Shown here piece after piece: positions 3,094 to 31,599 of a DNA stretch of 64,000 nucleotides (within the stretch, counting starts at the first letter, position 1; each line of letters begins with the position of its first letter). The DNA is from Lachnospiraceae bacterium (GTDB lineage: Bacteria > Bacillota > Clostridia > Lachnospirales > Lachnospiraceae). Location of the stretch: positions 1 through 64,000 of the forward strand of contig FZRB01000007.1 in assembly GCA_900199595.1 (NCBI GenBank). Reading direction: 5' to 3'. The position numbers and the translations under genes were made by a program. The notes beneath the pieces are model-generated. The model did not search any database. It was not told the origin of the DNA and saw only the letters and a program-made list of their open reading frames with translations.

Positions 3094-3663
3094 TCACACA
3101 CTCGCCCGGGAACAATTCATAATTCGAGCCATTTCGGAAATATTGATATTATTGGACTTATACATCTGATAGTACTTCCAAAACTTATCAGGGAGACTTT
3201 CTTTAGTTGTTTCCGGTCTTCCTATCTGTTTTCCTTTGGCAGCTGCGTTCTTCATCCCTGACTTTACTCTTTGTGATATGATATTGCGTTCCATTTCAGC
3301 AAACACACCCCACATCTTAACCATGCCTTCGGTCATCGGATCTATTTCACCTTTGGAACAGTCGACACGAAAAGAACCACCGATATCAAGTATCAGTTTC
3401 TTGTCTTTGACAGTCTGAAGAATCTCGCACAGATGCTTGGTGGATCTTGTGAGCCTTGATACTTCCGTGGTGGCAATAGTATCTCCTTCTGATATGATAT
3501 CCAAGAGTTTCCAGAGTTCGGCACGGTCATCTTTGGTGCCGGATTCATATTCCCAGTAAATATATTTATCATCTGTAACGCCAAGAGCATAAAGTTCTCT
3601 CTTTTGTCTATTTATATCCTGACGTTCTTCGCTGGTCGAACACCGAGCATATCCATATATCAT
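3094..3663 (-). CDS. Small serine recombinase (resolvase/invertase family), C-terminus shortened
   Basis: A 189-residue resolvase. The N-terminal catalytic domain has GYARCSTSEERQDINRQ with nucleophile Ser9 and the active-site arginines in EVSRLTRSTKH (Arg70, Arg73). MWGVFAEMERNIISQRVKSGM is the usual end of the catalytic domain and long helix. The C-terminal helix-turn-helix (ISEMARIMNCSRASV) stops abruptly at a TGA; readthrough would add KFFCK before the next stop. The DNA-binding domain is therefore a few residues short, perhaps through a nonsense change. AAAGGA precedes the ATG. Likely role: resolution or inversion of mobile DNA. Confidence 0.85.
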   Translation of the reverse strand: MIYGYARCSTSEERQDINRQKRELYALGVTDDKYIYWEYESGTKDDRAELWKLLDIISEGDTIATTEVSRLTRSTKHLCEILQTVKDKKLILDIGGSFRVDCSKGEIDPMTEGMVKMWGVFAEMERNIISQRVKSGMKNAAAKGKQIGRPETTKESLPDKFWKYYQMYKSNNINISEMARIMNCSRASV

Positions 3664-4502: not shown

Positions 4503-6590
4503 ATGAAGGACGATAATATGAAGAATGGTAAGTATTTGGATAGTAAACAGCAGAGTGATATATCAAAAGAAATCACAAATAGTGATCATCATAGCGTTGG
4601 AGACTGCTCCAAAACAAAACTGAAATTTCATGGTGTAGAAAGCAACTGTGCTCTTGTATCATTTGGAAAAGAGTATGTTTATATTAATGTTGAAAAATAT
4701 GCGGCTAAATGGATTTTAAAGAATGAAAAATTCATTCTTATGGTGCCGTTCAGATACATGGAGGGATTTCTTGAAGACATTTCTGTAAAGGGGGAATATG
4801 GATTCATAGCATCTGATGATCTGATGCATGCTTATGATAAATACAAAAAAATGATTAATAATCCGGCCACTCTTAAGCCTCTTGATGGTGTAGATGGATG
4901 TGGTAATGATACATATGAGCTGTCATTCAATGACTATCTTTTTAATCGTAAGCTTCTTGAACATCGAGGTGAGTTTTTTCATTTCATGGATTCTCAGAAT
5001 TATAGCAATAAAGTGCTTCTTTCTACAGATGACACTTTACTCCCGGAACTTCTGTCTTTTTTGGAAAATGAAAATGTGGATGTTTCAGCTGTAAGAAACA
5101 GATCTAAAACGGATAGAAATGTTAGTGAAAACACCTTGGTAGATATTGATTCGCTTAATTCCGCTGTGAAACCATATCCTTATCAGATTGAGGATGCAGA
5201 TAAGATCATTAAAATGAAACGAGCCCTGATAGCGCATGAGATGGGATGTGGAAAGACTAAGATTTCATTATTTGTTGGAATAAGCATAGAGGGATGTAAG
5301 TTAATCATCTGTCCGGAATCGTTAAGGCTGAATTGGCAAAGAGAAATTCTCCAGGTAGATAAGAATGCAGATATAATCATTGTAAAATCAAATAAAGAAC
5401 CGGATTGGAATCATGAGTGGATCATAATGGGATATAAGACAGCGGTAAAGTATTATTCTTCAATTCCGACAAGTAAGATCAGCTGTTTGTTTGTCGATGA
5501 GGCTCATAAATGCAAAGCTGTGGATAATTATGGTCGTCCTGGATCAAAACAGGCTAATACAGTAATTGGTCTTGCTGATGCGATAGAGAATGTTTATCTT
5601 ATTACTGGAACACCAATGCCTACGAGCAATAAAGATTTGTATAATATTCTAGTTATTCTGAAAGCTATAAATCCGAACATTAATCGATCTTTCTTTCATT
5701 TTGGACTTAAATATTGTAATGCTCACGAAACAATGTACGGCTGGGATTTCAATGGTTCCTCAAATACATCCGAGTTACACAAGTTTCTTTCAAGATATAT
5801 GGTAAGACGTCTCAGAAAGGATGTCCTACCAGATTTAAATAAGAATAGGATTCCTATAATTACTGACAATTCTCTACCACGAGATTATATTTCAATCGAA
5901 AAAAGGCTGATAGAATTAAGAAAAACAGACTTAATCGCTGAAGCAAACAATGATAATATATATCATAGGAAGAATCCTAATAAAGATACATATATGGGAC
6001 TGGCAATGACGGGAAGACGATTGCTTTCTGCATGCAAACTCAAAACTGCTATTGAAATGGCAAAAGAGCTGTATGAGGATGAAAAATCTGTTGTATTGGT
6101 TACGGAGTTTGTCGAAACCATGGAAAATATGGAAAAGGAATTTAAGCAGAAGGCCTGTTACATCAAAGGTGGAATGTCGGATGCTGAAAAGCAAATGGCA
6201 ATTGATCAATTTCAAAAAGGTGAGAAAAAAATATGCTGCATGAGTCTGATTGCTGCTGGTGTAGGTATCACTTTGACCAAGGCTCACCATATGATAATAT
6301 GTGACCTGGACTGGACTCCTGCTAACATGGTGCAGGTAGAAGACCGGATCTGTCGTGACGGACAAACTGAATCCTGTAATATATATTATGTCTGTCATAA
6401 AGAATCTATATTAGACAATATATTTATAAATATGATTACAGAAAAATCTGAAAATATTGACCAGGTAGTCGATCAGGCTGAAAACACAATTGATTTGGTC
6501 AAAATGATTAATGAATCAAACAATAAAGAAGCAAATACATTCATATCTATACTTAAAATGCGTCTTGAAAAAATTATAGAAAATGAATGA
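4503..6590 (+). CDS. SNF2/DEAH-type superfamily 2 helicase-like ATPase
   Basis: A 695-residue protein. Residues 1-220 form a unique N-terminal region. The helicase core starts near YPYQIEDA (residue 225), with Walker A GCGKT (248-252), DEAH (332-335), the TGTP motif (near residue 365) and, in the second RecA domain, AAGVGITLTKAHHMIICD and QVEDRICRDGQ. The last motif is typical of SNF2/SMARCAL1-like DNA translocases. It probably moves on or remodels double-stranded DNA rather than unwinding RNA. It is alone on the plus strand between two minus-strand paralogues. AAGGAGG precedes the ATG. A role in element maintenance or defence is inference from context only. Confidence 0.85.
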   Translation: MKDDNMKNGKYLDSKQQSDISKEITNSDHHSVGDCSKTKLKFHGVESNCALVSFGKEYVYINVEKYAAKWILKNEKFILMVPFRYMEGFLEDISVKGEYGFIASDDLMHAYDKYKKMINNPATLKPLDGVDGCGNDTYELSFNDYLFNRKLLEHRGEFFHFMDSQNYSNKVLLSTDDTLLPELLSFLENENVDVSAVRNRSKTDRNVSENTLVDIDSLNSAVKPYPYQIEDADKIIKMKRALIAHEMGCGKTKISLFVGISIEGCKLIICPESLRLNWQREILQVDKNADIIIVKSNKEPDWNHEWIIMGYKTAVKYYSSIPTSKISCLFVDEAHKCKAVDNYGRPGSKQANTVIGLADAIENVYLITGTPMPTSNKDLYNILVILKAINPNINRSFFHFGLKYCNAHETMYGWDFNGSSNTSELHKFLSRYMVRRLRKDVLPDLNKNRIPIITDNSLPRDYISIEKRLIELRKTDLIAEANNDNIYHRKNPNKDTYMGLAMTGRRLLSACKLKTAIEMAKELYEDEKSVVLVTEFVETMENMEKEFKQKACYIKGGMSDAEKQMAIDQFQKGEKKICCMSLIAAGVGITLTKAHHMIICDLDWTPANMVQVEDRICRDGQTESCNIYYVCHKESILDNIFINMITEKSENIDQVVDQAENTIDLVKMINESNNKEANTFISILKMRLEKIIENE

Positions 6591-9158: not shown

Positions 9159-9596
9159 TTAATAATCCTCTTCCAACATATTATCAAAAATGGTTTCTTC
9201 TACTACATGTACGCATTCATTTAAGTTCTTTTTGATATCTTCTCCCCAGAACCGAAGCACAGTCCACCCCATGGCTCCAAGTTTTTTATTAACCTCATCA
9301 TCTCTATCTATATTACGTGCAATTTTACTAATCCAAAACTGACTATTATTACTGTTTTTCAAATGTTCACGTAAGATTTCCCAGTCCTTGCCATGAAAGA
9401 ATTCCCCATCACAAAAAATCACAATATGGTATTTAGTCAGAACTATATCCGGAGAACCAGGAAGCTCTTTAAAGTTTTTTCTGTAGCGATATCCCTTATG
9501 CCATAAAGCCTTCCGCAGTTTTATCTCGATGGCAGTGTTTTTTGATTTGATATGAGACATATTTTTATGACGTTGTTCTTTTGTCAGCACATCCAT
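9159..9596 (-). CDS. vsr: Very short patch repair endonuclease Vsr
   Basis: A 145-residue protein that opens with the classic LTKEQRHKNMSHIKSKNTAIE and has LWHKGYRYRKNFKELPGSPDIV with catalytic Asp50 and FCDGEFFHG with His68. Vsr nicks 5' of the T in T:G mismatches created when 5-methylcytosine deaminates, and starts repair. It fits directly beside a C5-cytosine methyltransferase system, where it protects methylated sites from mutation. It follows the restriction gene by six bases on the same strand. The length is normal for the family. Confidence 0.92.
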   Translation of the reverse strand: MDVLTKEQRHKNMSHIKSKNTAIEIKLRKALWHKGYRYRKNFKELPGSPDIVLTKYHIVIFCDGEFFHGKDWEILREHLKNSNNSQFWISKIARNIDRDDEVNKKLGAMGWTVLRFWGEDIKKNLNECVHVVEETIFDNMLEEDY

Positions 9597-9602
9597 AAAA
9601 TA

Positions 9603-10553
9603 CTAATCTTTCCTATCATTTTCTTTTTTTGCTGCAATAAATATTGAGTATAATGCTATTCTTTTTTTAAGAGATTCTTTTACAAAGACATGGTCATCAT
9701 GCCTTATGATTTGTTTATTAATAGTTTCTATAGCTTGATTCGCTTGACTAACCGAATATTCGAAACCTTTCCATTTAGCAGCATTATCCAAACATATCTT
9801 AATCAATTCTTCAAACGAAAGAACTCTGTTATTGTTTTTAAAGTTTATTTCCTTATTAAAAGAAGTGGTTGTAAGCTGAATATTTGCCTCATATAGAGTA
9901 TTTAACACATCAGCTGATACTTTTTCATCCAAAGTCGCCAAAAACATTTCTCTTGCGCCTGTCCTGCCCATTTCTTCAGGTACTTCTTGCCATCTTTCCC
10001 TTAACGTAGTTTTTGCACTTATGAGAACTGAATTTCTTTTATTTATTTCAAATTCTATTACACCAGGTGATACCGTATCAACAAGCTTTCCTAATCCTTT
10101 TTCCACAAAATAATCTTTACCTATATTACCTTGGCTATCTAGCGGAACACCAGCTCCAATTAATACCAATTCAATTATATGTTCAAATTCTTTTCCAGCC
10201 CTACTCCTTCTACTCTGCGTATTAGAAAGACATAATTGATATATATGATCTGGAAACTCTTTTACATATTTTTTTATCGAATCAATATTGCTTAATCCAT
10301 TATAATTTTCGTTTTCGATAAGGTATTCAAGCATATGTGAGGTAAATGCTTTTTCTTCAACCAGAAAATCTGCCCAACACTGAGCTCGCATAGAATTAAC
10401 AATTTCAGATGCATTCTTCTGAAAAAACTCTGCCTCTTTTTCATCATATTTTAGTTCACAAAAAGCCTGGTATGCTCGTTCAAATGAGCTTTTAAAAAAT
10501 ATATCTCTTTCAACTTTAATCTGTTTTTGAAAGTCTTCAATTCTTATAGACAT
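9603..10553 (-). CDS. Type II restriction endonuclease, EcoRII-C/SsoII-like
   Basis: A 316-residue protein. Residues 114-130 (SRRSRAGKEFEHIIELV), then KLVDTVSPG with Asp159, and SAKTTLRERWQE with Lys181 form a PD-(D/E)XK core of the type seen in EcoRII, SsoII and NgoMIV enzymes. The SAKTT.RERW signature is characteristic of this group, which cuts before CC in sites such as CCNGG or CCWGG. It is divergent from the cognate-type methyltransferase and shares its control region. AAGGAG lies before the ATG. Exact recognition sequence is inference; CCNGG is favoured because the operator matches the SsoII type. Confidence 0.8.
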   Translation of the reverse strand: MSIRIEDFQKQIKVERDIFFKSSFERAYQAFCELKYDEKEAEFFQKNASEIVNSMRAQCWADFLVEEKAFTSHMLEYLIENENYNGLSNIDSIKKYVKEFPDHIYQLCLSNTQSRRSRAGKEFEHIIELVLIGAGVPLDSQGNIGKDYFVEKGLGKLVDTVSPGVIEFEINKRNSVLISAKTTLRERWQEVPEEMGRTGAREMFLATLDEKVSADVLNTLYEANIQLTTTSFNKEINFKNNNRVLSFEELIKICLDNAAKWKGFEYSVSQANQAIETINKQIIRHDDHVFVKESLKKRIALYSIFIAAKKENDRKD

Positions 10554-10601
10554 AAAATATCTCCTTGAAATATGAATAATTATGTGTTAATGTGTCATTC
10601 A

Positions 10602-10618
10602 GAGGACACATTGTCCTC
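10602..10618. promoter_or_regulatory. SsoII-like operator between restriction and modification genes
   Basis: GAGGACA (10602-10608) and TGTCCTC (10612-10618) form a perfect inverted repeat around CAT. The 15-base core AGGACACATTGTCCT differs at a single central base from the operator I recall for the SsoII system (AGGACAAATTGTCCT), which is bound by the helix-turn-helix domain of the methyltransferase. Position between the divergent genes fits autorepression of the methylase and activation of the restriction gene. Confidence 0.8.
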
Positions 10619-10650
10619 AATAGCACTCAGTAACACATCGAGGTGACCAC

Positions 10651-11817
10651 ATGAATATTATATCATCTTCAGAAAAATCAAGCGAGTCAAAACTAATATA
10701 TGAAAAAAGAATTCGTCTAAATATGACTCAAAAAGAATTGGCAGATGCGGTTGGAATGCCAAAATATGGTGACCGAACTATTCGCAGATGGGAAAATGGA
10801 GAAACCAAACCAACATCATTAGAATTGAAGGCTATTCTTGATTTTCCTGAATCTGTGCCTTATTTAAACCCTGACCATGCTGATTACAAAATGATTGATC
10901 TGTTTGCCGGAATTGGTGGAACCAGACTGGGATTTCAATTAACAGGAAGAACAAAATCAGTATTTAGTAGCGAAATCGATAAGTATGCAGCAAAAACATA
11001 TTATGCTAATTTTGGAGATAAACCCGCAGGAGATATAACCCAAATAAGCGAAACAGACATTCCGGATCATGATATTTTAGTAGGAGGATTTCCATGTCAA
11101 GCTTTTAGTCAAGCTGGTTTGAAAAAAGGATTTGAGGATACCAGAGGGACTTTATTTTTTGAAATTGCCCGTATTTTAAAATATAAACACCCCAAAGCTT
11201 TTCTGTTAGAAAATGTAAAAAACCTTCTTGGTCATGATAACGGAAAAACCTACGCTGTAATTGAAAACACCCTAAAAGAATTGGGGTATGATGTCAATCT
11301 TCTTGTATATCATGCCAAAGACTTTGGCGTTCCACAAAACAGAGAAAGGATATACATTGTTGGATTCAACAAACAATCTGTACCTAATTATAAAGATTTT
11401 ACTGCCCCAGTCCCCCCCATGGTCCAAACATGTGTCGGAAGTATATTAGAATCAAATGTTGATTCAAAATATACTATTTCTGATAAACTTTGGGAAGGAC
11501 ATCAGCGGAGAAAAAAAGACAACAAAGCTGCTGGGAAAGGGTTTGGTTATTCTCTTTTTAATGAAAATAGCCCCTACACAAATACGATATCTGCAAGATA
11601 TTATAAAGATGGCAGTGAAATACTAATCGAACAAAAAGGCTCCAACCCCAGAAAACTAACCCCCAGGGAAGCCGCGCGGCTCCAAGGTTTTCCTGATGAT
11701 TTTATTATTCCTGTAAGTGATACTCAGGCTTATAAGGAATTCGGAAATTCCGTAGCAGTACCAGTTATAAATGCTATTGCGTCTGAAATAATAAAAGTGT
11801 TAGATCAAAATAGTTAA
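10651..11817 (+). CDS. DNA (cytosine-5-)-methyltransferase with N-terminal HTH regulator domain
   Basis: A 388-residue protein. Residues 14-60 are an XRE-like helix-turn-helix (MTQKELADAVGMPKYGDRTIRRWENGE). The catalytic domain begins with MIDLFAGIGG (motif I, 81-90), has GGFPCQAFS with catalytic Cys149 (motif IV), LLENVK (motif VI, 185-190), DFGVPQNRERIYIVG (motif VIII) and EFGNSVAVPV (motif X). This makes C5-methylcytosine and guards the host against the divergent restriction enzyme. The HTH-methylase fusion is the hallmark of SsoII/EcoRII-type methylases that also control transcription. GAGGTG precedes the ATG. Confidence 0.94.
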   Translation: MNIISSSEKSSESKLIYEKRIRLNMTQKELADAVGMPKYGDRTIRRWENGETKPTSLELKAILDFPESVPYLNPDHADYKMIDLFAGIGGTRLGFQLTGRTKSVFSSEIDKYAAKTYYANFGDKPAGDITQISETDIPDHDILVGGFPCQAFSQAGLKKGFEDTRGTLFFEIARILKYKHPKAFLLENVKNLLGHDNGKTYAVIENTLKELGYDVNLLVYHAKDFGVPQNRERIYIVGFNKQSVPNYKDFTAPVPPMVQTCVGSILESNVDSKYTISDKLWEGHQRRKKDNKAAGKGFGYSLFNENSPYTNTISARYYKDGSEILIEQKGSNPRKLTPREAARLQGFPDDFIIPVSDTQAYKEFGNSVAVPVINAIASEIIKVLDQNS

Positions 11818-13861: not shown

Positions 13862-14428
13862 TTAAACTATTTTCTTTTTGGCTCTTGCCAAAGTAGCTTT
13901 ACTTATCCCTGTCAATTCAGTCACTTGTGAATAACTATGATTTTTCAGTAATTCCAACGCATGTTCAATCTGTTTTTTCGAATATTTCTTAGGCCGACCC
14001 TCATGAAAGTTTGGATTTTTTCTTGCTATAGCCCGACCTTCTTGAGTACGTTCTACAATCATATCTCTTTCAAACTCAGCAAATGCAAACATTATTTGAC
14101 AAATAAGTTTACCGGTAGGGGTATTATCCATTTTTCCCATATTGAGTACATGAACGCTTATATCATTTTTTAACATCTCCTGAACCATTTTAGAACCTTC
14201 TGAAGCACTTCTGGCAATCCTATCAAGCTTAGTTACTACAAGTGTATCACCAGGTCGTATTTGACTCATAAGCTTTTCAAATTCAGGTCTTTCTGTAGTT
14301 GTTCCGGTAAATGCATCTTTATATATAAGCGCAGCTCCAGCGTCTCTTAAAGCAGCATCCTGAGCTTCTAATCCATTACCATCTTTAGCCTGTGTTTTTG
14401 TACTCACTCTTGCGTATCCAATAATCAT
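13862..14428 (-). CDS. Small serine recombinase (Tn3-resolvase/invertase type)
   Basis: A 188-residue protein with [20 protein letters not shown] (nucleophile Ser9), [13 protein letters not shown] (Arg70, Arg73), [20 protein letters not shown] and a C-terminal helix-turn-helix ([21 protein letters not shown]). It is full length for the resolvase/invertase group, unlike the one at 3.1-3.7 kb. AAGGAG precedes the ATG. The AIPR gene follows on the same strand. It could resolve or invert part of the accessory region; two such genes bracket the defence island. Confidence 0.92.
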
Positions 14429-21706: not shown

Positions 21707-22083
21707 TCATCCTCGGCGAGTCTGACAGTTTAGTTTCAGAAAGCATACAGGGCTTTTTTTGCATGGAGAGGGGTTTCCAGGGGAAACCGATGGAGAATGG
21801 GATTCAATCATACATTGTTGCCGCAGGCAGTGGTCTCGGGAGTCGGGCGAGACCTGCGAAGCGGATGGGAATGGTAAAAAATCTTTACTAATGTACTTTA
21901 TTTTTTTACAAATATAACCAAATGACGGTAAACCCACAGAAATAAATCATAGCCCATGAAGATTGGGTATAATCAACAACGCTAAAAGAACTTCTTATAC
22001 TCCATTTTTTCAAAAATAATTTGAAAAAAGTGCCAAATCATATAAAAAATATCTAATAAAAGCTTTTTTTCGTTTTTGGTTTA

Positions 22084-22227
22084 TTTTTCCCCATAATTAT
22101 AAATATAGATCATCAAAAAGGGAAAATATACCCTTTTTTAAGAACAAGGGAACGTCCCTCTATAATCTTTCAAAAAATCACAAAAATATATTTTTTCATA
22201 ATTCGCTAACCTTCCCCATAATAGGGG
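22084..22227 (+). promoter_or_regulatory. Two TTCCCCATAAT boxes upstream of the 22.26 kb gene
   Basis: TTTTTCCCCATAAT lies at 22084-22097 and TTCCCCATAATAGGGG at 22212-22227, the latter with CCCC/GGGG symmetry, 36 bp before the start codon. The first box is embedded in a sequence (CGTTTTTGGTTTATTTTTC before it) almost the same as that upstream of the helicase gene at 4362-4389. Confidence 0.45.
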
Positions 22228-22262
22228 CAAAGAATAAAAATAAAATCAAGGAGGAGATAAAA

Positions 22263-22721
22263 ATGAACGAAACTACCAACATTATAAGTTACTCAGATCA
22301 AATACAGATTATAAGAATTAAAGAAGCCACTATTATTCTTTCACATCGTGCAGATATCGTTTATTTAAATATGAATAGTTTTTTATATTTTTCGAGGAAT
22401 AACAACTATAGCATCCGTATAGAAGAGATATTCTGCACCGATAAAAGATGTTTTAAGCGATTGCTTGATATATTACTAGATTTTGCTATTCATAATAACT
22501 TTAAGGAAATATATTATGCAGATAAAATCGCTGAGGAATATCTTAATCGCTTCATCAACTGGGGATTTGTAGAAAAAAAAGTTGTCGGATATGACACCAA
22601 TCATTTCCTTCATTATTACATCACTGACAAACATACGCTTAGAAAAGGTTATAACACCTTCAGAGATTATTTGAAAAATGTATTGAAAGGAGGATGCAAA
22701 ACATGTCATCGAAATCAATAA
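22263..22721 (+). CDS. Hypothetical protein leading the mobilisation operon
   Basis: A 152-residue protein with AAGGAGG before the ATG. The middle (LLDILLDFAIHNNFKEIYYADKIAEEYLNRFINWGFVEKKVVGYD, given here in description) has the alternation of a GNAT-like acetyltransferase fold: helix, strand, a helix, then NWGF as the end of the fold. I do not see a clear acetyl-CoA binding loop, so this is only a resemblance. The last part contains CKTCHRN. It overlaps the next gene by 19 bp and begins the run to the relaxase. Confidence 0.6.
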   Translation: MNETTNIISYSDQIQIIRIKEATIILSHRADIVYLNMNSFLYFSRNNNYSIRIEEIFCTDKRCFKRLLDILLDFAIHNNFKEIYYADKIAEEYLNRFINWGFVEKKVVGYDTNHFLHYYITDKHTLRKGYNTFRDYLKNVLKGGCKTCHRNQ

Positions 22722-22903
22722 GTGAACTTGTAACACAGCTTCAAGCTGAGAGTGAACAAGCAAAATACTTTGCTCGTTTGTTCAACCAGGCTGTTAAGCA
22801 TGAGTTTGGTTTTTCTGTTAATGAACTTCATGATTTTATTATGAAATACAATTTGCTCGAGAAAAAATTCGAAGATCGCGAAGCGAACAAGCAGGGTCAG
22901 TAG
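22703..22903 (+). CDS. Small hypothetical protein upstream of the structured region
   Basis: A 66-residue helical protein starting at the ATG at 22703, nine bases after AGGAGG; an ATG at 22694 would be directly next to that site. Sequence: SSKSISELVTQLQAESEQA, then KYFARLFNQAVKHEFGFSV. Highly charged and helical, like small accessory proteins of mobilisation operons (for example MobC-type), but no family is recognised. A stem-loop begins 3 bp after its stop. Confidence 0.6.
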   Translation: MSSKSISELVTQLQAESEQAKYFARLFNQAVKHEFGFSVNELHDFIMKYNLLEKKFEDREANKQGQ

Positions 22904-22905
22904 TG

Positions 22906-23460
22906 CCTATTTCATTCATGAAATAGGTCTACGGATAGGGGCCTAGCCCCTATACAGATACGACTTTAGGAGTAGCTGTCAGGGGAGAGATAAAATCATC
23001 TAAAAGGTTGCGAGTTTACGAGCAGTCTTTTAGTGATTTATCGCCGGGGACATAGTCCCCGCTTGCTCTTGAATTCATGAGAGAGCAAGTCCAGGATAGA
23101 CAGCGCCTAAAATATTTCTGTTAAGAAACATTTTAAGACGATGTCGTAAGGATGGAACATCCTTGATGCGTAGGGGAAGCTCCCGGCTGGGGGAGCAGCT
23201 AGCTCCACCATTAGGGCAAGATAAAGCATGCCAAAGCGTGCTGTTGTCAGATTAGAATTGAACGTAGTGAAATTCATCTGACATATCTTGTATGGCAGAC
23301 GCCAAGAGAATTTACACATTGGAAGGAATGACAAAGATAGTTTTTATCAAGTTTAACAGGCGATTATCAATGTTAAGCATGATAAAAAGCATCTACGGAA
23401 TGACGACCTTTGGGTGATTTATCGACGGTGGATGTCATAAACATATTTAGCCGTATCCGG
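22906..23460 (+). ncRNA. Candidate large structured RNA or origin of transfer (ordered hairpins)
   Basis: The 590 bp between the small gene and the relaxase gene has no plausible gene but a dense set of stems: CCTATTTCAT/ATGAAATAGG (22906-22927), ATAGGGGC/GCCCCTAT (22935-22953), a long-range pair TTTAGG 22965-22970 with CCTAAA 23106-23111 and GCTGTC 22975-22980 with GACAGC 23099-23104, enclosing GATAAA/TTTATC with CTAAAAG/CTTTTAG, CGGGGAC/GTCCCCG (23045-23061) and CTTGCTCT/AGAGCAAG (23062-23089). Later: CAAGATA 23217-23223 with TATCTTG 23284-23290, enclosing TGTCAGAT/ATCTGACA; then TTTTTATCA 23341-23349 with TGATAAAAA 23380-23388. Class unresolved: a large RNA of the ROOL/GOLLD/OLE kind, or a MobV-type oriT. 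Confidence 0.6.
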
Positions 23461-23491
23461 CATTTTGAAACTTGAATAAGGAGACTATATT

Positions 23492-24793
23492 ATGGCAAGT
23501 ATAGAAAAATTTACTCATGAAGCAATAGTTAGCATGCTCCGGCATAATACCCGGACTGTGGCAGAACCTGCTAATACAAATATAGATCCTGAACGCCAAA
23601 AGCTAAACTATTCTTTTCACATGAATCATTGTGGTCTATCTGATTACCAATATTACAAGAAAATAATAGATGAAAAATATATATATGGACGTGGTACCCA
23701 AAGAGAAAAACATACAGTAACATCCTGCAGTTGGGTGGTAACTGCCCCCAAAGAAATATGTGGAGATCCTATCAAAGAAAAGAATTTCTTTCAAGGGGTT
23801 TTTGATTTTGTATCTAAAAGATATGGTAAAGATAATATAGTGAACAATGCTGTCCATTATGATGAATCTGGTTCACCACATATTCATATCATTTTTTGTC
23901 CGGTTACAGATCTTAATCATGATAAAGTACGCTATAAAACTACAAAGACAAAGAATGTTATAAAAAAAGCGTCCGGCAGATATGAATATGAGTGTAACTA
24001 TGTATTAAAAAATGGAACTACAGTTCCTGCTAATGAGTATGAAGTCAAGGATAATATTGATCTAAGAATCCCGCTAAAAAACTACTCCAAAATGTCAGAT
24101 TATTATGATGAAAAAATATCAGCTAATGACGTACTCAATAAAATAGAACTCAAGAATTTTCACTACGATTTGCAAAAATATCTTGATGAAAATGATATTG
24201 AAGGCAGCGTCATTACCGGCAAAACTGGTGGTATTAATTATTCTGTAAAAACATTAAAAGATTTTACAGAAAAAACAGGTCTAAGGTTAGATGAAGTAAA
24301 GGAAATTCAAGGAGAACGATCTTTACTTGAAAAATATGTCGAACAGAATTCAAAGATCAAAAACCTCGAATCATTATTATATGAAAAAATAGCTTTAATA
24401 GAATCTCTACAAAAAGAAATTATAACAGCAAAAGATAATTATTTTAAATTGTCATCTGATTTTAAAGCTGAGTTACTAAATAAAGATGCACAGATTCAGA
24501 AATTAACAAAAGATATTTCCGAAAAAGATCATCAAATTATTGCCACTACAGGAACTAATCTGGAACTTCAAAATAAAATAATGGAAATGGAAGTTGCCTT
24601 ACACGCAAAGCAACACGAATTAGAATCTGCTTATGAGAAAATTAATTACATTGAAGTAAATAAAGAATATAACTCATCCAGTTCAGAATTTAATCATGAT
24701 TGGGAACGCAATACTAATACATGGAACGACCGTTCTCATACTTCAGGATGGGAAAATAGAAATACAGAAATTGAGGAGGAAAAAACATGGTAA
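23492..24793 (+). CDS. MobV-family relaxase (plasmid mobilisation protein)
   Basis: A 433-residue protein. Residues 1-45 (EKFTHEAIVSMLRHNTRTV...IDPERQKLNYSF) and the metal-binding motif HYDESGSPHIHI with His122, His130 and His132 are typical of MobV/Pre-type relaxases. Residues about 285-385 form a coiled coil. The relaxase nicks the origin of transfer and pilots the strand during mobilisation; MobV enzymes usually act at an oriT just upstream of their own gene, here within the folded 22.9-23.5 kb stretch. AAGGAG precedes the ATG. It is followed by a 68-residue gene and the coupling protein, so the mobilisation operon is complete without a pore. Confidence 0.9.
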   Translation: MASIEKFTHEAIVSMLRHNTRTVAEPANTNIDPERQKLNYSFHMNHCGLSDYQYYKKIIDEKYIYGRGTQREKHTVTSCSWVVTAPKEICGDPIKEKNFFQGVFDFVSKRYGKDNIVNNAVHYDESGSPHIHIIFCPVTDLNHDKVRYKTTKTKNVIKKASGRYEYECNYVLKNGTTVPANEYEVKDNIDLRIPLKNYSKMSDYYDEKISANDVLNKIELKNFHYDLQKYLDENDIEGSVITGKTGGINYSVKTLKDFTEKTGLRLDEVKEIQGERSLLEKYVEQNSKIKNLESLLYEKIALIESLQKEIITAKDNYFKLSSDFKAELLNKDAQIQKLTKDISEKDHQIIATTGTNLELQNKIMEMEVALHAKQHELESAYEKINYIEVNKEYNSSSSEFNHDWERNTNTWNDRSHTSGWENRNTEIEEEKTW

Positions 24794-24993
24794 ATCAACT
24801 TTATTTAACAGAAAAAAAGCTAGAAAAAGAATCTGAAGTAACCAAAGAAACTTCGTCTAAGACTCACTGCCACGAAACTGAAATGTCCCAGGAATTAGGT
24901 AAATCTGTACTTCTCTCCGCTAATGCAATCGAAGCTGTAAAGCAGTCATCATGGGATAAGAACAAAGAAAGAGAGGTGGATTATGAAAGATAA
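24787..24993 (+). CDS. Small hypothetical protein between relaxase and coupling protein
   Basis: A 68-residue charged protein whose ATG overlaps the relaxase stop (ATGGTAA) and whose 3' end overlaps the coupling-protein start by 11 bp. GGAGGAAAAAAC precedes the ATG. It has a Glu/Lys-rich first half, CHETEMSQELGKSVLLSANAIEAVK and a polar end. No family recognised. The tight coupling suggests a role in the relaxosome or in coupling-protein contact. Confidence 0.6.
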   Translation: MVNQLYLTEKKLEKESEVTKETSSKTHCHETEMSQELGKSVLLSANAIEAVKQSSWDKNKEREVDYER

Positions 24994-26641
24994 ACTTATT
25001 AATGCTATTGATAGAATTAGTGATGTAATATTCTATTACAAGCTGATACACTTTTCATTAGTTTTTACATTTTTTTATACAGGCTTATATGTCTATTTTT
25101 CATACATCAGTATGGGATATATCTCAGAAGAAAACGAATGGATTCATCAAATAATAGCCATGGTGTTATTGGTGGGCGGATCTTTCTTGATTCTTTTCAT
25201 TTACTATGAAATAGTAATGAATCTTAAATATAAAAGATTAACCCACAGGAAATCACTGTTTGCGGATCGTACCAAGTTTAAAAAAACATACTCAGAATTA
25301 GTTCAGTTTTATAAAAAGGCTGATAGTACTGCAATGGATATCAATAAACTACCAACAGCAAAATGGTATAAAACTAATGGTCTCATTTTTGGAAAGATAC
25401 ATGATAAACTCATATATTTTAAACCTGAAGGGAATGGGATCGTATCATGTGTATGGGGAACCCCTGGCGATGGAAAAACTACAACGGTAGTAATTCCATC
25501 GGCAAGACAGTTCGGATTAGAGTATGACAAATCAACCAAACAAAATATTCAGATGGGATCCTGTATGGTACTAGATTGCAAGGGTGATATATTTGAAGCC
25601 AATAAAGACTATCGACGTATTAAAAGATTTTCTATGACCACTCCTCAAAACAGCTATCATTTTGATCCATTGGTAAATATCCGTCCGATGAACGATGAAG
25701 ATCGTTGTGAGGCACTGGATAATTTGGCTTTTACAGTCATTCCTGATGAAAAAGGTGAAAACGGAGCTTACTTTACAGATGTAGCAAGAGAATTTTTTAC
25801 AGGAATTTTCTTATATTGTATCCATATGGACGATAAAATTTCATTTGTAGATATATGTGACATGATTTCACAGAAATCATATACCGAATGGGGTTCAACG
25901 ATTGAAAAATCTGGTTATATACAAAGTATGAGATACATTAATAAGTATAAGGATGAAAACCCTCGAAATGTCGGTGGAGGTTACAATAAGCTTTCTAAAA
26001 CGGCACGATCTTTTGTAAATCCCACTTTACGAATATTACTCCAAAATGACAGTCATTGTATATCTCCTGCAGATCTTGAAAACAGTACTGATATATATAT
26101 TCAGGTGGATCCCAATAAAATGGATCTATATAAAAATATAATTACAATGTTATTTAATGAATTTATGTCAGCTGCTCTATATCGCAATATAGGTCAGAAT
26201 CCTCCAATATGCTACATTATTGATGAATTTGGACAACTTCCTAAAATGCCAGTTATAGAACAGTCTGCAGCACTTATGAGAGCTTATAACTGTTCTATAA
26301 TGCTCTGCTGTCAAAGTCTTGCCATGATAGACCAGCATTACGGAAACGAAGGTCGTAAAATACTTATGGATTGTGCAAAATGTCATTGCATTATATCTCT
26401 GATGGAGCCGGATACCAGAGACTGGGCTACACGACTAATTGGAAAAAGAAAAGTACTTAAAAGAAGTGATTCCGAACACCGCAGCAACGGTGTTTCTTCT
26501 GGAATTTCAATTTCAGAAGCCGATGAAGACATAATGCCACAGAACCAGTTTGGCACATTACCGGATAAACATGAAATTATGATTTACTATAAAGGAAAGT
26601 ATATTAAAGCATCTACAACATATTACTTGGATATGAAATAA
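24983..26641 (+). CDS. Type IV secretion coupling protein (VirD4/TraG family)
   Basis: A 552-residue protein with two N-terminal membrane segments (about 20-42 and 55-80), Walker A GTPGDGKT (159-166), a Walker B CYIIDEFGQLPK, and the MRAYNCSIMLCCQSLAMID segment. This is the hexameric ATPase that delivers the relaxase-DNA complex to a mating pore. No VirB4/TrbE-type ATPase follows in this window, so the element would borrow a pore from another element. The start uses GAGAGGTGG. The gene converges on the Tad operon. Confidence 0.92.
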   Translation: MKDKLINAIDRISDVIFYYKLIHFSLVFTFFYTGLYVYFSYISMGYISEENEWIHQIIAMVLLVGGSFLILFIYYEIVMNLKYKRLTHRKSLFADRTKFKKTYSELVQFYKKADSTAMDINKLPTAKWYKTNGLIFGKIHDKLIYFKPEGNGIVSCVWGTPGDGKTTTVVIPSARQFGLEYDKSTKQNIQMGSCMVLDCKGDIFEANKDYRRIKRFSMTTPQNSYHFDPLVNIRPMNDEDRCEALDNLAFTVIPDEKGENGAYFTDVAREFFTGIFLYCIHMDDKISFVDICDMISQKSYTEWGSTIEKSGYIQSMRYINKYKDENPRNVGGGYNKLSKTARSFVNPTLRILLQNDSHCISPADLENSTDIYIQVDPNKMDLYKNIITMLFNEFMSAALYRNIGQNPPICYIIDEFGQLPKMPVIEQSAALMRAYNCSIMLCCQSLAMIDQHYGNEGRKILMDCAKCHCIISLMEPDTRDWATRLIGKRKVLKRSDSEHRSNGVSSGISISEADEDIMPQNQFGTLPDKHEIMIYYKGKYIKASTTYYLDMK

Positions 26642-26997: not shown

Positions 26998-28395
26998 TCA
27001 AAGATTAATAAATGCCGGATACATTACTATAACTATTACAAGAATTAGCAGGATAGAGGTTGGCATCAAAAGCTTTTCCGATGCTTCCTCACCTCTTTTT
27101 TTTATTTGTTCCCGCTTTATGTAAAAACTCTGCCTAACCTCCGAATCCAATAATCCGATAAGGTTAGTGTTACCATACGCGAGATTCTGACTAAGAAGTG
27201 ACATAAGTCTCATATATTCCTGTGAACCGAGATTTTCCCCAAGTTCCATATATGCTGTATTTTCTTTTACACCTGAAGTCACCTTATTTAGTGTAAATCC
27301 CACTTCTTTTTTCAAATATTCACTCTTTTCAGCTTTTACAGCACACCTCATGGCATCTCTCAAACTCAGCCCGGCGCCTATATGTATGGCAAGCCTGTTG
27401 ACAAAGCTGTAATAAGAATTCTCGAGCTGTTTGTCCCGTTTTTCGCCCTCTTCATTCAGATGATTTACCTGTATGTAGGTAAATAGAAGTATCGCTATTA
27501 TTCCTATAAATAAAAATGCGCCGATCCTCTTTTCTCTTCCTGAATTTCTTATTACCCTGACCCCATCTATTTCCCGGGGAATAACCAGCTCCTTATCGGT
27601 CCGACTGTCCCTTTCAATAAAAAGTATTGATGCTTTTGCCTTTTCGGAGCTGGTAAGATTATCATCCTTTACAACTACAACATTTCGTGTATATGTATCA
27701 GTATGATTATCATCTTTTATTTCTGCCGTCAGTGTTACTTCCGTGGGAGCTTCTATAACATCATTTGAAACATCGCCTCCTGTGCTGATAACATTTGGCT
27801 CACTTGTACTCCACGAAATCTTTAATACTCCTTCTTCATCTCTGACAGGAAGATTAAGCTTATTAGTTATTTTTTCATCAGAAATATTATCTCCAAGAAA
27901 ACATGAGTCAATGTATGACTTTGCCTGAGCGCTGGCATTCTGAAACTCCTCATCCGTATATTCCTTCGGACTTATTTCAAGGCTGAATCTTTCTCCGTGT
28001 CCATCTGTCTCATCATCCAGCTGCATATCTACATATCTTGAATTTTCACCAACACCAGGACGCTTAACCGTGTACAGATCAGATTCACTATCCGGTATGA
28101 AGGTTATTCCTATAGTAATGATCAGAATTATTACCATTCCCACAAGAAATGTATGATATAAACCAATCATAAAATCTGATAATTTATCCTCCAGACTCCT
28201 GGTATTCAGCACCGAAGTTTTTCTTATAACACTTCTTGCTTTACTCTTAAAATAAGCCGGTGTAATGTGAAACATCATTGCAGAGAGACACCATAATATA
28301 TCTGCTCCATCCTTATATTTGCTATAGTTTTTCCTGCTGATGATAGCCATCATAGCTATGATCAATACAAGTCCAACCGATAAATACCTAATCAT
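26998..28395 (-). CDS. tadC: TadC-like inner-membrane platform protein with extracellular insert
   Basis: A 465-residue protein. N-terminal membrane segments (1-20 and about 75-100), a long polar insert (about 105-285), a membrane segment near 285-305, then a T2SSF-type domain (YSFVNRLAIHIGAGLSLRDAMRCAVK) and a last membrane segment. The T2SSF end marks it as a TadC homologue, a platform for the Tad pilus. The insert is unlike normal TadC: it includes LKISWSTSEPNVISTGGDVSN and TYTRNVVVVKDDN, which resemble atrophied bacterial Ig-like domains. Typical TadC is about 300 residues, so this is a long variant. AGAGGAG precedes the ATG. Confidence 0.82.
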   Translation of the reverse strand: MIRYLSVGLVLIIAMMAIISRKNYSKYKDGADILWCLSAMMFHITPAYFKSKARSVIRKTSVLNTRSLEDKLSDFMIGLYHTFLVGMVIILIITIGITFIPDSESDLYTVKRPGVGENSRYVDMQLDDETDGHGERFSLEISPKEYTDEEFQNASAQAKSYIDSCFLGDNISDEKITNKLNLPVRDEEGVLKISWSTSEPNVISTGGDVSNDVIEAPTEVTLTAEIKDDNHTDTYTRNVVVVKDDNLTSSEKAKASILFIERDSRTDKELVIPREIDGVRVIRNSGREKRIGAFLFIGIIAILLFTYIQVNHLNEEGEKRDKQLENSYYSFVNRLAIHIGAGLSLRDAMRCAVKAEKSEYLKKEVGFTLNKVTSGVKENTAYMELGENLGSQEYMRLMSLLSQNLAYGNTNLIGLLDSEVRQSFYIKREQIKKRGEEASEKLLMPTSILLILVIVIVMYPAFINL

Positions 28396-28414
28396 ATATT
28401 TGCTCCTCTATTAA

Positions 28415-29137
28415 CTAAACGATATTGACTATTCTTCTCCCCATATAATCTGCTCCGATATTTATAACCATAATTATTGTCATGATTATTATTCCCGGAA
28501 TGCCTGTATACAGCGGATCCAGAAAGCCTTTATTGGTAATTCTCAGAAAAAGGCAAATAGCAGCCGGCATATAAACCATTATTGCCAGCTCCAGTCTTTT
28601 TGCTGCTACTACTGTTGCCAGTTCTTCCCTCAGTTCTATCTCGCTTACTATTCTTTCCACAGCATCCTTAAGAACCTTCACCGCATTTCCGCCTGTTCTC
28701 TTTATGGTTGATATTACAATTGCAAAATCATCCGCCTCTCTTAAGTCTATTTCTTTTGCAAATTCCTCCAGGCATCTTTCCAGCGTATATCTGAGCTGCA
28801 GTTTTCCTTCAATTCTTTCCAACGCCATTACTGTACTGTTCTTTTTCCCATACATATCAGTGAGATCATTTCTCGCCATATGTACAGCACTTTCCATGGA
28901 CTTGCCCGCCGCCAGAGAAGACTGAAAAGAAATCATCATGCTTTTTAATTCTGACAGTCGAATAATTCTTTCTCTTTCCTTATTGTTGTTTCTTACAACC
29001 CTATATCCATATATTCCAACAGCCGATGCCGGAATCAGTCCAAAGATCCTGTTGTAAAACACATAGGCAGCGGCCAGGCTCAAGAATATGCCGGAAAGAA
29101 TTGCTTTAATATCTATCCTTGTCTTCATGCTATACAA
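28415..29137 (-). CDS. tadB: TadB-like inner-membrane protein of the Tad pilus
   Basis: A 240-residue membrane protein with two N-terminal membrane segments and two C-terminal ones around a T2SSF domain (MMISFQSSLAAGKSMESAVH). It partners TadC in the pilus assembly platform. It overlaps the tadA gene by 8 bp and precedes tadC by 19 bp. Usual TadB is near 300 residues with an N-terminal extension; this one is shorter. Function assignment rests on the T2SSF segment and gene order. Confidence 0.86.
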   Translation of the reverse strand: MYSMKTRIDIKAILSGIFLSLAAAYVFYNRIFGLIPASAVGIYGYRVVRNNNKERERIIRLSELKSMMISFQSSLAAGKSMESAVHMARNDLTDMYGKKNSTVMALERIEGKLQLRYTLERCLEEFAKEIDLREADDFAIVISTIKRTGGNAVKVLKDAVERIVSEIELREELATVVAAKRLELAIMVYMPAAICLFLRITNKGFLDPLYTGIPGIIIMTIIMVINIGADYMGRRIVNIV

Positions 29138-30365
29138 ACCTTTCCTGATAAACCTTCAGAAGACCGGAATTAGCTAGTTTCCCGACATTAATAAGGTCAT
29201 TGATCTTCTTTAATTCTCCGATCACCTTTTCCTGTTTTATATCTGTCTCCACAAATCTGTATATCTCTCGTGTGACTATTTCATCATTTTCCATTTCCAA
29301 AACCTCTCTTATCTCCAGAACCTTTCTGGATTTATCTCTGAGTCTCCCAAGATGCACTACAATATCAATTGCAGATGCAATCTGCTGCCTTACTGCTTTT
29401 AACGGAAGATTTGCTCCCATAAGAACCATCGATTCAAGTCTTAGTAACATCTCATGAGCTGAATTAGCATGTCCTGTTGACAGGCTTCCATCATGTCCTG
29501 TATTCATAGCCTGCAGCATATCTATAGCTGCTGCGTCTCTGACCTCTCCGACTATAATCCTGTCAGGTCTCATACGAAGACTGCACTTAATAAGCTCACG
29601 GATAGTTATCATGTTTTTTCCTTCGACATTTGCATTTCTTGCTTCAAGTCTCACAAGATTTTCAACGCCTATCACCTTAAGCTCGGCACTATCCTCTATG
29701 GTTATTACTCTCTCATCCTTTGGAATAAACTCTGTAAGCGCCCCCATAAATGTTGTCTTGCCGGCACCTGTTCCTCCTGATATGAAAATGTTGTAACCTG
29801 AAGCTACAAGAAGCTTCATAAAATCTGCTGTCTCTTCATCTATGGCTCCAAGCGCAATAAGCTTTTTCATATCAATCTTTTCTTTGGAGAATTTTCTGAT
29901 AGTAACTGCACTGCCATCCACTGATATACCATTCAAAACAACATTTACTCTCGAGCCATCAGAAAGGATTACATCTACTATCGGAGTAGTCTCATTCACC
30001 ATTCTGTCTGCAGCTCCGACTATCTGCTGTATGACAGTCATAAGTCTGTCAGGATTCTCAAAACGTCTGTCGGATTTTATAAGTCGTCCTTCCTTCTCAT
30101 AAAAAATAGAATCCGCTCCATTGATCATTACCTCTGTTATGCTGTCATCTTCAAGAAAGTCCGACAGAACATCCAGTCTCCTTATGGCATTAAAAATATC
30201 GGATCTGATACCTAATTTTTCTCTTAGTGGGATATAGCATTCTCCGAGCTCCTGATTTATACAGGCATCTATTATTTCATTTACATCCTCATCCCTTATC
30301 TCCCCGGAAAGGTCCATCCTTTCAAGAACCTGATTCCTGATTCTTTCCTTAATTTCTTTATTCAT
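29130..30365 (-). CDS. tadA: TadA/CpaF-type pilus assembly ATPase
   Basis: A 411-residue ATPase with Walker A GGTGAGKTTF, the RVITIEDSAELKV segment, the aspartate box and VRLEARNAN, and LIKCSLRMRPDRIIVGEVRDAAAID as the second Walker-type part with a TGHDGSLSTGHA box. This is the CpaF/TadA family of type II/IV secretion ATPases that power Tad pilus assembly. Gene order after tadZ and before tadB is the normal one. The 8-bp overlap with tadB suggests coupled translation. Confidence 0.95.
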   Translation of the reverse strand: MNKEIKERIRNQVLERMDLSGEIRDEDVNEIIDACINQELGECYIPLREKLGIRSDIFNAIRRLDVLSDFLEDDSITEVMINGADSIFYEKEGRLIKSDRRFENPDRLMTVIQQIVGAADRMVNETTPIVDVILSDGSRVNVVLNGISVDGSAVTIRKFSKEKIDMKKLIALGAIDEETADFMKLLVASGYNIFISGGTGAGKTTFMGALTEFIPKDERVITIEDSAELKVIGVENLVRLEARNANVEGKNMITIRELIKCSLRMRPDRIIVGEVRDAAAIDMLQAMNTGHDGSLSTGHANSAHEMLLRLESMVLMGANLPLKAVRQQIASAIDIVVHLGRLRDKSRKVLEIREVLEMENDEIVTREIYRFVETDIKQEKVIGELKKINDLINVGKLANSGLLKVYQERFV

Positions 30366-30394
30366 CTTTATCTTGTCTCCGCTATTTAGTCGAA

Positions 30395-31354
30395 TTAATC
30401 AGGATCTGATTCACTGGTAATTCTCCATGCAGTTTTTATCATTTCCTCACTAAAGGCATCTCTATCGGGAACATCAACTGTGACTATCTTTTTTATTACA
30501 GATCTGCATCCCATATCTGATAAAAGCTTCATGAAAACTTCCAGCTTTCTGACAGATATCTCATCTCTTAGTACCGGCATATAAATCCTGTCAAATTCGT
30601 CCAGAACAGACAGATTTCCCAGAGCAGCAGAACCTATATCAAAGCATATGGTGGTGAAGTTGCCGGTCTTGAGCAAGAGATTCTTAAGCTTTACGATTTC
30701 AGAACAGCTTACATCGAATGTATCCATATATGTCCCCGACAAAACGGACATGTAGATACCCTGCTCCTGTCGTATCTGCATATTTATCACATCCTCAAGA
30801 TCCGACCTGTTCATTTTCAGCGGGTAGAGCATATTGTTTGTAAGATACTCCAGCCTGTCGCTGAAGTCCTCCATTCCGACATAAAGCCCTCCCCGTACTT
30901 CATCTAAGCCTGCAAGCGTTTTTGCCAGCCTCGTTTTCCCGCATCTTCCGATTGGTGAATAAACACATATAAAACGGGAAACACTTCTCATCCCAACATT
31001 ATTTGGAACAAGCTGCTTCTTTATCTGCCTGCATATATCACTCACCATCTGGTATCTGTAGATATAGCATTCAGAAATCGAATATCCTTCTCCTGAGTTT
31101 CTGGTATCCGTTTCTGACATTTCCAAAACCTTTACATCTGACAGATATATATCAGTTCCCTTTTTCTCACATTCCGATATATCATCGGTCACTATGAGAT
31201 CCAGTGATCTGGTTTCCAGATAATCCCTTAAATGGCTAAGAGTCGAAAAAATAACTATTTGAAATCCCAGAGACATATCAGAATTTACATATTCCATAAG
31301 TGCTTTAGAATAATCTATATCTCTGTCACAGATACCTACCTTGTAGGTTCGCAT
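30395..31354 (-). CDS. tadZ: TadZ/CpaE-like atypical ParA-type protein
   Basis: About 320 residues, starting at the ATG at 31354 because AGGAGG lies seven bases before it. A GTG six bases upstream would be almost next to that site. The first 110 residues look receiver-like, and the second part has SPIGRCGKTRLAKTLAG, a degenerate P-loop (no GKGG...), then ICFDIGSAALGNLSVLDEFDRIYMPV. CpaE/TadZ proteins place the Tad apparatus at the pole. First gene of the operon; the 480-bp gap upstream holds the likely promoter. Confidence 0.86.
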   Translation of the reverse strand: MRTYKVGICDRDIDYSKALMEYVNSDMSLGFQIVIFSTLSHLRDYLETRSLDLIVTDDISECEKKGTDIYLSDVKVLEMSETDTRNSGEGYSISECYIYRYQMVSDICRQIKKQLVPNNVGMRSVSRFICVYSPIGRCGKTRLAKTLAGLDEVRGGLYVGMEDFSDRLEYLTNNMLYPLKMNRSDLEDVINMQIRQEQGIYMSVLSGTYMDTFDVSCSEIVKLKNLLLKTGNFTTICFDIGSAALGNLSVLDEFDRIYMPVLRDEISVRKLEVFMKLLSDMGCRSVIKKIVTVDVPDRDAFSEEMIKTAWRITSESDPD

Positions 31355-31599
31355 TTCCACTCCTCCTAACCCGGAAATTACTCACAACGCTTTACCAAAG
31401 TGAGTGTACATATAGGTTAACAATTTGATTGTTTTGATTAAAGTAGCCGAATGCGCGATTATGTTGCGCAACACTTTGTTGCTTTTAAATTCCGCTATTT
31501 TCGCCTAACCTCAAAATATGGTGGGTCTATTTCTTTTCAGACCACAAATTAAACAGGCTCTTCTTTTTTCTAATTAAAAAAAGCAACGTTTTGTTGACA

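Follow-up and report, generated by a model that had tools for sequence, protein, structure and literature searches.

A hairpin-rich noncoding region precedes a MobV relaxase gene

The DNA analysed here (the window) is a stretch of 64,000 nucleotides from a Lachnospiraceae bacterium (contig FZRB01000007.1). On its plus strand, positions 23492 to 24793 encode a 433-aa MobV relaxase, matched by the Pfam Mob_Pre model at 73.4 bits (cut-off 25.5, E 2.8e-20) and by the NCBIfam MobV model at 87.5 bits, under that model's cut-off of 100. A small ORF separates this gene from the gene for a VirD4-type coupling protein (24983 to 26641, plus strand; Pfam T4SS-DNA_transf, E 1.7e-31). Upstream of the relaxase gene, the ORF list has a small plus-strand ORF at 22694 to 22903 (69 aa from 22694, probable start at 22703), whose product had no family in Pfam or NCBIfam and is a candidate accessory protein. 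The 588 nt between the two genes (22904 to 23491) contain three units of about 85 nt, referred to as A modules, then a MobV-type oriT core, then a stretch bearing halves of a second unit, the B module. The structured unit starts at about 22891, slightly before the 22904 proposed in a first-pass annotation of this DNA, and the array therefore begins within the 3' end of the small ORF.

Other genes of the window were identified by eye. Tad/Flp-type pilus genes on the minus strand (26998 to 31360) come right after the coupling-protein gene, and the element may therefore end near 26.7-27.0 kb. Serine recombinase-like genes at 3094-3663 and 13862-14428, both on the minus strand, may belong to the mobile element. 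A restriction-modification cluster, with a DNA cytosine methylase, a helix-turn-helix start and a Vsr-like endonuclease, occupies 9159-11817.

The first-pass annotation had described the region as a set of ordered hairpins with no gene of its own, and both descriptions hold. The 588 nt reached a minimum free energy of -206.6 kcal/mol, whereas shuffled sequences averaged -148.7 (z -8.25) and none of 100 did as well, and the structure is conserved upstream of related MobV relaxases. With a second shuffle set (n = 60), z was -9.2 for the plus strand and -8.6 for the minus strand; two neighbouring stretches of equal length, largely coding, had values of -0.5 and -2.1 (plus) and -1.4 and -2.9 (minus). 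Folding positions 22892-23300 with DNA parameters gave a z of -10.1. Within 22904-23491 the plus strand has no ORF of at least 60 aa (ATG, GTG or TTG start), and a 75-aa minus-strand ORF with a TTG start lies at 23107-23334.

Several plus-strand hairpins lie outside the A modules or overlap their edges. The fold contains a linker hairpin, ACAG..CTGT, at 22954-22979, and by eye KH1P17 and G810, two genomes with related elements, have similar linkers (TCGACC..GGGAG). An inverted repeat at 23062-23089 forms the hairpin CTTGCTCT..AGAGCAAG with TTGAATTCATGA at its apex, and is conserved in the KH1P17 alignment. Directly 5' of the oriT core, the fold predicts G-rich hairpins (23174-23208) that are conserved in KH1P17 and, by eye, similar in G810. 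A long-range pairing of 22965-22980 with 23099-23111, also proposed at first pass, is present in the sequence as two interrupted 6-nt matches, and in the equivalent segments of three relatives the exact complement never exceeded 4-5 nt. We do not regard it as conserved, because it is weak in these relatives and competes with a covarying stem of module 3.

Structured regions recur upstream of related relaxase genes

KH1P17 (G439, apparently Lachnospiraceae bacterium KH1P17), a genome of the same family, encodes a relaxase 50% identical to that of the window, and its upstream region aligns to ours with 80% identity over 84 nt. Other structured relaxase-upstream regions were found in G764 (L019), in the Anaerotignum sp. 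MAG RGIG2943 (L007), in the Butyrivibrio fibrisolvens D1 plasmid pNP21 (L011) and in G177 (L004, L017). The fold z-scores of KH1P17, G764, pNP21, L007 and G177 were, respectively, -6.7, -10.0, -12.3, -4.4 and -5.8 on the plus strand and -7.9, -7.7, -9.6, -4.6 and -7.2 on the minus strand. Homologues of the small protein, 26-44% identical to the window's, are encoded at the same place in G764, in pNP21 and in both G810 elements, linking the structure to the small gene as well as to the relaxase gene. KH1P17 has a different ORF at this position.

The KH1P17 ORF before the array (L003 3190-3633, minus strand) resembles, by eye, part of a larger upstream ORF in G764 (L019), and the G810 elements have an ORF of about 256 aa at that upstream place. 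This ORF possibly encodes a further accessory protein.

At the nucleotide level, the window region matched one of 61 genomes of its genus, its own, and the KH1P17 copy matched one of the 48 of its own genus, again the genome it came from. Against plasmids, the former gave one unrelated 36-nt piece only and the latter no match. A nucleotide search of phages gave no match, exact strings were found 0 times in viral contigs, and relaxase scans of viral contigs confirmed nothing; a loose oriT pattern that hit 60 loci in these contigs, with about 45 expected by chance (a hand estimate), was not used. A relaxase search of the order was positive in 47 of 393 genomes, most of the 30 loci listed being other MobV groups, and the upstream letters of part of these loci were inspected by eye.

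A conserved inverted repeat marks the putative nick site

The oriT core (23217-23290, plus strand) is bounded by the arms CAAGATA (23217-23223) and TATCTTG (23284-23290), which enclose two hairpins. This long-range pair, noted at first pass, is exact. When 11 relaxase-upstream regions were scanned with the arm pattern CAAnnTA..TAnnTTG, a perfect 7-nt inverted repeat was found in eight: the window, KH1P17, G764, pNP21, both G810 elements, L007 and G177. The spacer between the arms is 35-60 nt long, KH1P17 having a shorter alternative of 25 as well. The pattern was absent from G685, G687 and G719, the G685 stretch being only 154 nt long. The right arm is followed by T, giving a G/T junction, in seven of the eight repeats, a base that the pattern in part demanded; in G764 the next letter is C.

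In pMV158 and IMESag-rpsI, the MobV relaxases MobM and MobSag cut a G/T bond on the coding strand beside hairpins (PMC5863519, PMC5090054). By analogy with these systems, we infer a nick at 23290/23291 on the plus, relaxase-coding strand. The region resembles these MOBV1 origins in its inverted repeats, its G/T bond and its position directly before a MobV gene, and hairpin-based recognition with nicking of the relaxase-coding strand would be a further likeness. The IMESag-rpsI oriT spans 42 bp with three overlapping repeats, whereas here the core sequence is different, the arms are separated by 35-60 nt and about 320 nt of tandem modules lie upstream. The putative nick sequence of the window, TATCTTG/TATGG, also differs from the GTGTG/TT or GTGCG/TT given for MOBV1 (PMC5090054), and the region was not assigned to the MOBV1 (pMV158-type) class. 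The first-pass suggestion of a MobV origin of transfer is supported: the region directly precedes a MobV relaxase gene and has, in common with its relatives, an inverted repeat adjoining a G/T junction.

The upstream half is built from a repeated module

The A module, about 85 nt long, comprises the motif CAGGRATARA, a long stem often capped by tandem G.A and a GGG/CCC hairpin. Module 3 of the window (23091-23176, plus strand) is conserved in KH1P17 and G764, and a hand alignment of the three had both-sided changes in 11 of 25 pairs. A covariance model built from these three rows, R1, matched pNP21 at 34.1 bits (E 5.5e-7 for 129 kb). With filters off it also picked up another pNP21 copy and, further upstream in both the window and KH1P17, lower-scoring ones, which identified the module as a repeated unit. 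The alignment extended to five rows had both-sided changes in 21 of 25 pairs, its cells were 95.8% paired, and none of 500 shuffles came up to it on any of five measures. From these five rows we built a second model, R2, which was run without protein information. Module 3 is a training row of both models. Module 1 (22891-22964, plus strand) scored 18.1 bits with R1 (E 1.3e-4 in 1.1 kb) and 21.9 bits with R2 (E 0.0016 in 37 kb), and was not found in KH1P17. Module 2 (22979-23072, plus strand), with the tandem-GA cap TTGC-GA-GTTTAC-GA-GCAG, scored 8.7 bits (E 0.055 in 1.1 kb) and 19.6 bits (E 0.0057 in 37 kb), respectively.

Among 37 genomes of G764's genus, R2 matched two: G764, a training row, and G810, which was new. 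In both G810 elements, the modules lie between a small-protein homologue and a MobV relaxase gene. The array is rare in the genomes searched, since few true matches came from the wider searches. R1 gave three matches in 397 genomes of the family, namely the window's own, G439 and one in G337 that is false, being a terminator-like hairpin by context; R2, run across the class (392 genomes), also gave three, of which one was the window's own and the others, G1094 and G974, were judged false by eye from their housekeeping context. Applied to some relaxase loci of the order (L017-L020 and L022), R1 scored 15.5 bits in L022 (E 0.08). With R2 at E ≤ 0.1, no A module was found in G177 and only a doubtful one in L007.

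The two G810 elements (L109, L110) are different from one another and have the same order of parts: small gene, three A modules, oriT core, three B modules, relaxase gene.

Module stems covary and contain few G.T pairs

Over eight loci (37 kb), R2 gave 18 matches at E ≤ 0.1, of which 14, from six elements, were kept (three in the window, three in each G810 element, two each in KH1P17 and pNP21, one in G764). Those dropped were antisense partial matches of palindromic stems (L003 and L019, both plus strand), a partial match (L011 8567-8604) and a weak full-length match of 16.2 bits that adjoins the oriT of L007 (4600-4694) and may be a real diverged module. The choice of rows rests on position and strand, because the scores overlap: the dropped rows range from 15.2 to 19.1 bits and the weakest four kept from 15.6 to 21.9 bits (E 0.0016-0.056).

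In the 14 modules, 306 of 318 cells were paired and 24 of 25 pairs had both-sided changes, with 110 both-sided cells (shuffle mean 29.2, maximum 42) and three one-sided cells; these rows were aligned by fitting them to the model, and modules within one element share their history. The nine rows outside the R2 training set behaved similarly, with 192 of 199 cells paired and 69 both-sided cells (shuffle mean 20.3, maximum 30). Compensatory stem changes, which the first-pass annotation had named as a check on its hairpins, are thus present across the module relatives. They are what a structured RNA would display, and are equally expected of folded single-stranded DNA.

The proportion of wobble pairs bears on this choice. 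G.T made up 8 of 306 paired module cells (2.6%; six of the eight in the non-training rows), against 18 G.U in 206 (8.7%) for nine Rfam-aligned TPP riboswitches from five of the same genomes, a difference with a Fisher p of 0.003, for cells that are non-independent and a control of one RNA family. RNA folds of the eight whole regions, counting helices of at least 5 pairs, chance helices included, had G.U in 59 of 693 pairs (8.5%) on the plus strand and 23 of 644 on the minus strand, with plus-strand values of 8.7% in the window and 13.6% in KH1P17. The plus-strand figure is close to that of the riboswitches, which weakens the argument for DNA.

Tandem-GA caps occur on the relaxase-coding strand

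Many of the stems are capped by Y-GA-(short hairpin)-GA-R. Across eight regions totalling 2,893 nt, GA/GA caps with at least four flanking Watson-Crick pairs occurred 10 times on the plus strand and 0 times on the minus strand, about 1.1 being expected from shuffles, and the other non-self-complementary doublets gave 0-2 each in the same scan. KH1P17 has four such strict caps and the window one (0.28 expected), the hairpin GAATT-GA-ACGTAGT-GA-AATTC within the oriT core (23255-23275, plus strand). Under a laxer rule, 10 of the 14 A modules have a GA cap, a count that leaves out G810-C207 M2 for its few flanking pairs; KH1P17 M2 has two matches, of which one is probably spurious. A loose form of the motif occurs 41 times over the 64-kb window, 13 times on the plus strand and 28 on the minus strand, the strict cap included. 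The caps point to the strand that codes for the relaxase, whether it acts as transcribed RNA or as transferred DNA; it is also the strand nicked in the MobV systems characterised so far.

Loops are short: in 16 perfect hairpins of the modules, they measure 3 nt in nine, 4 nt in five and 5 nt in two. GNA loops are reported to form stable DNA mini-hairpins (PMC6479982).

B modules lie downstream of the putative nick site

A second unit, ATTGRRA..GACYTTT, is found downstream of nic at 12 sites in five of the 11 regions: two in pNP21, three in each G810 element and two each in G685 and G719. At six of the 12 sites the outer stem measures 4 bp or more, compared with 633 of 22,000 random positions, counts that are not independent because G685 is nearly a copy of one G810 element. 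KH1P17, G764, L007, G177 and G687 lack the pattern, and across 29 genomes it was found once, in G719, already known. The window has no intact B module; the pattern scan found degenerate B-module-like halves with a long arm at 23317-23412 (plus strand), CATTGGAAGG at 23317 and GACGACCTTTG at 23402.

Short degenerate repeats of upstream-module strings lie at 23392-23453, where 23408-23428 resembles 23027-23047 at 86%. They may represent either the remains of a further copy or an arm of a B module.

A probable extended origin of transfer that may act as folded single-stranded DNA

We think it probable that the region is the extended oriT of a MobV mobile element and acts as folded single-stranded DNA. 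Single-stranded DNA fits better than RNA because the modules have few G.T pairs, their loops are short and of DNA type, and the array is placed around nic. In the proposed mechanism, the relaxase would bind the inverted repeat at 23217-23290 and nick the relaxase-coding strand at about 23290/23291; on the nicked strand, the trailing side of nic would then carry the three A modules in tandem, and the leading side the B-module-like structure. The modules would fold into hairpins whenever this strand is single, either on displacement in the donor or after entry into the recipient, and the hairpins would be structures to be recognised when transfer starts and closes, most likely by the co-conserved small protein, a candidate binder of the array, and/or by the relaxase. 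Alternatively, they might be read by a host RNA polymerase or primase that starts the second strand. More tentatively, and with the balance somewhat against it, the tandem A (trailing) and B (leading) modules, tandem G.A caps and short DNA-type loops could define a new class of single-stranded DNA scaffold that a dedicated small protein recognises in conjugation.

ssoA-type single-strand origins have a conserved box, TAGCG[AT], which occurs 0 times in the window and is present in four of the 11 regions. The box bears on a specific version of the explanation just given, in which host RNA polymerase, recruited by the folded strand, either primes the second strand or expresses early genes. We consider this version possible but rather unlikely. 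Integrative and conjugative elements do carry stem-loop single-strand origins near the relaxase gene (PMC4595007), and folded single-stranded promoters are described for the F leading region (PMC9849209). Like the window array, ssoA, ssoU and sso1 of ICEBs1 are noncoding stem-loops near a relaxase gene and an oriT, and they work on single-stranded DNA; sso1 of ICEBs1 and ssoASag lie downstream of the relaxase gene, unlike our array. The Frpo promoters of F share with the proposed array that they are folded transferred-strand DNA near oriT, but they belong to the leading region, whereas the A modules lie on the trailing side, which enters the recipient last.

A structured RNA, either the long leader region of the relaxase transcript or an independent noncoding RNA that overlaps oriT and is needed for mobilisation, would also account for the strong covariation with conserved unpaired motifs, for tandem GA on one strand only and for the 8.5% G.U of the plus-strand folds. 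There is a precedent beside the oriT of Salmonella genomic island 1, where sgm-sRNA, like the window array, is placed between a mobilisation gene and oriT (PMC9299015); that RNA was demonstrated by northern blot and trans-complementation, whereas here the RNA is hypothetical and the relaxase is unrelated in type. Against an RNA stand the few G.T pairs in the modules, the lack of an Rfam match and the position of the array around nic. Moreover, at 21900-23600 promoter-like sites numbered 8 (7.0 expected) and terminator-like sites 1 (1.1 expected). We judge this explanation unlikely, though the region may still serve as both RNA and oriT, a combination that the first-pass annotation had allowed.

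Less likely still are cruciforms, or protein-binding inverted repeats in double-stranded DNA, that serve as relaxosome assembly sites. The similar fold z-scores of the two strands would suit them, and MobM acts on extruded hairpins in supercoiled plasmid (PMC5863519). In a cruciform, however, GA/GA on one strand would be TC/TC on the other, and the GA/GA caps are confined to one.

Membership of the ROOL, GOLLD, OLE, raiA or HEARO families, raised at first pass, is most improbable: the region shares with ROOL, GOLLD and OLE its size and its look of a large noncoding region with many stems, but it lies in an oriT context and the covariance-model search that had been proposed gave no gathering-score match to any Rfam family in the 64-kb window, the three chance-level hits over 22600-23700 at E ≤ 10 being to other families. 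The relatives, searched at E ≤ 1, had hits below gathering score only. A group II intron was considered by eye only and rejected.

If the single-stranded DNA scaffold is real, it would be a DNA counterpart of the large ornate bacterial RNAs. Covariation tends to be taken as evidence of RNA, and here it is strong around a transfer origin; with few G.T pairs in the modules as well, the region is therefore a test case for genome scans that must tell folded DNA with a function from noncoding RNA. If it is on the transferred strand that the modules act, they would reveal how this strand is marked, primed or closed in these gut and rumen elements. No description of a modular hairpin array at an oriT was found in the literature searched, which comprised titles and the starts of abstracts, with most subscription journals outside its scope. 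Searches for the family can now use the module, its model and its gene context.

In L007, the Rfam family Clostridiales-2 was matched weakly but over its full length at 4649-4719 (22.9 bits, gathering score 58.6, E 0.24), a match that reaches to just before the oriT-like repeat at about 4684. The Clostridiales-2 'RNA' of Rfam might itself be an oriT hairpin region.
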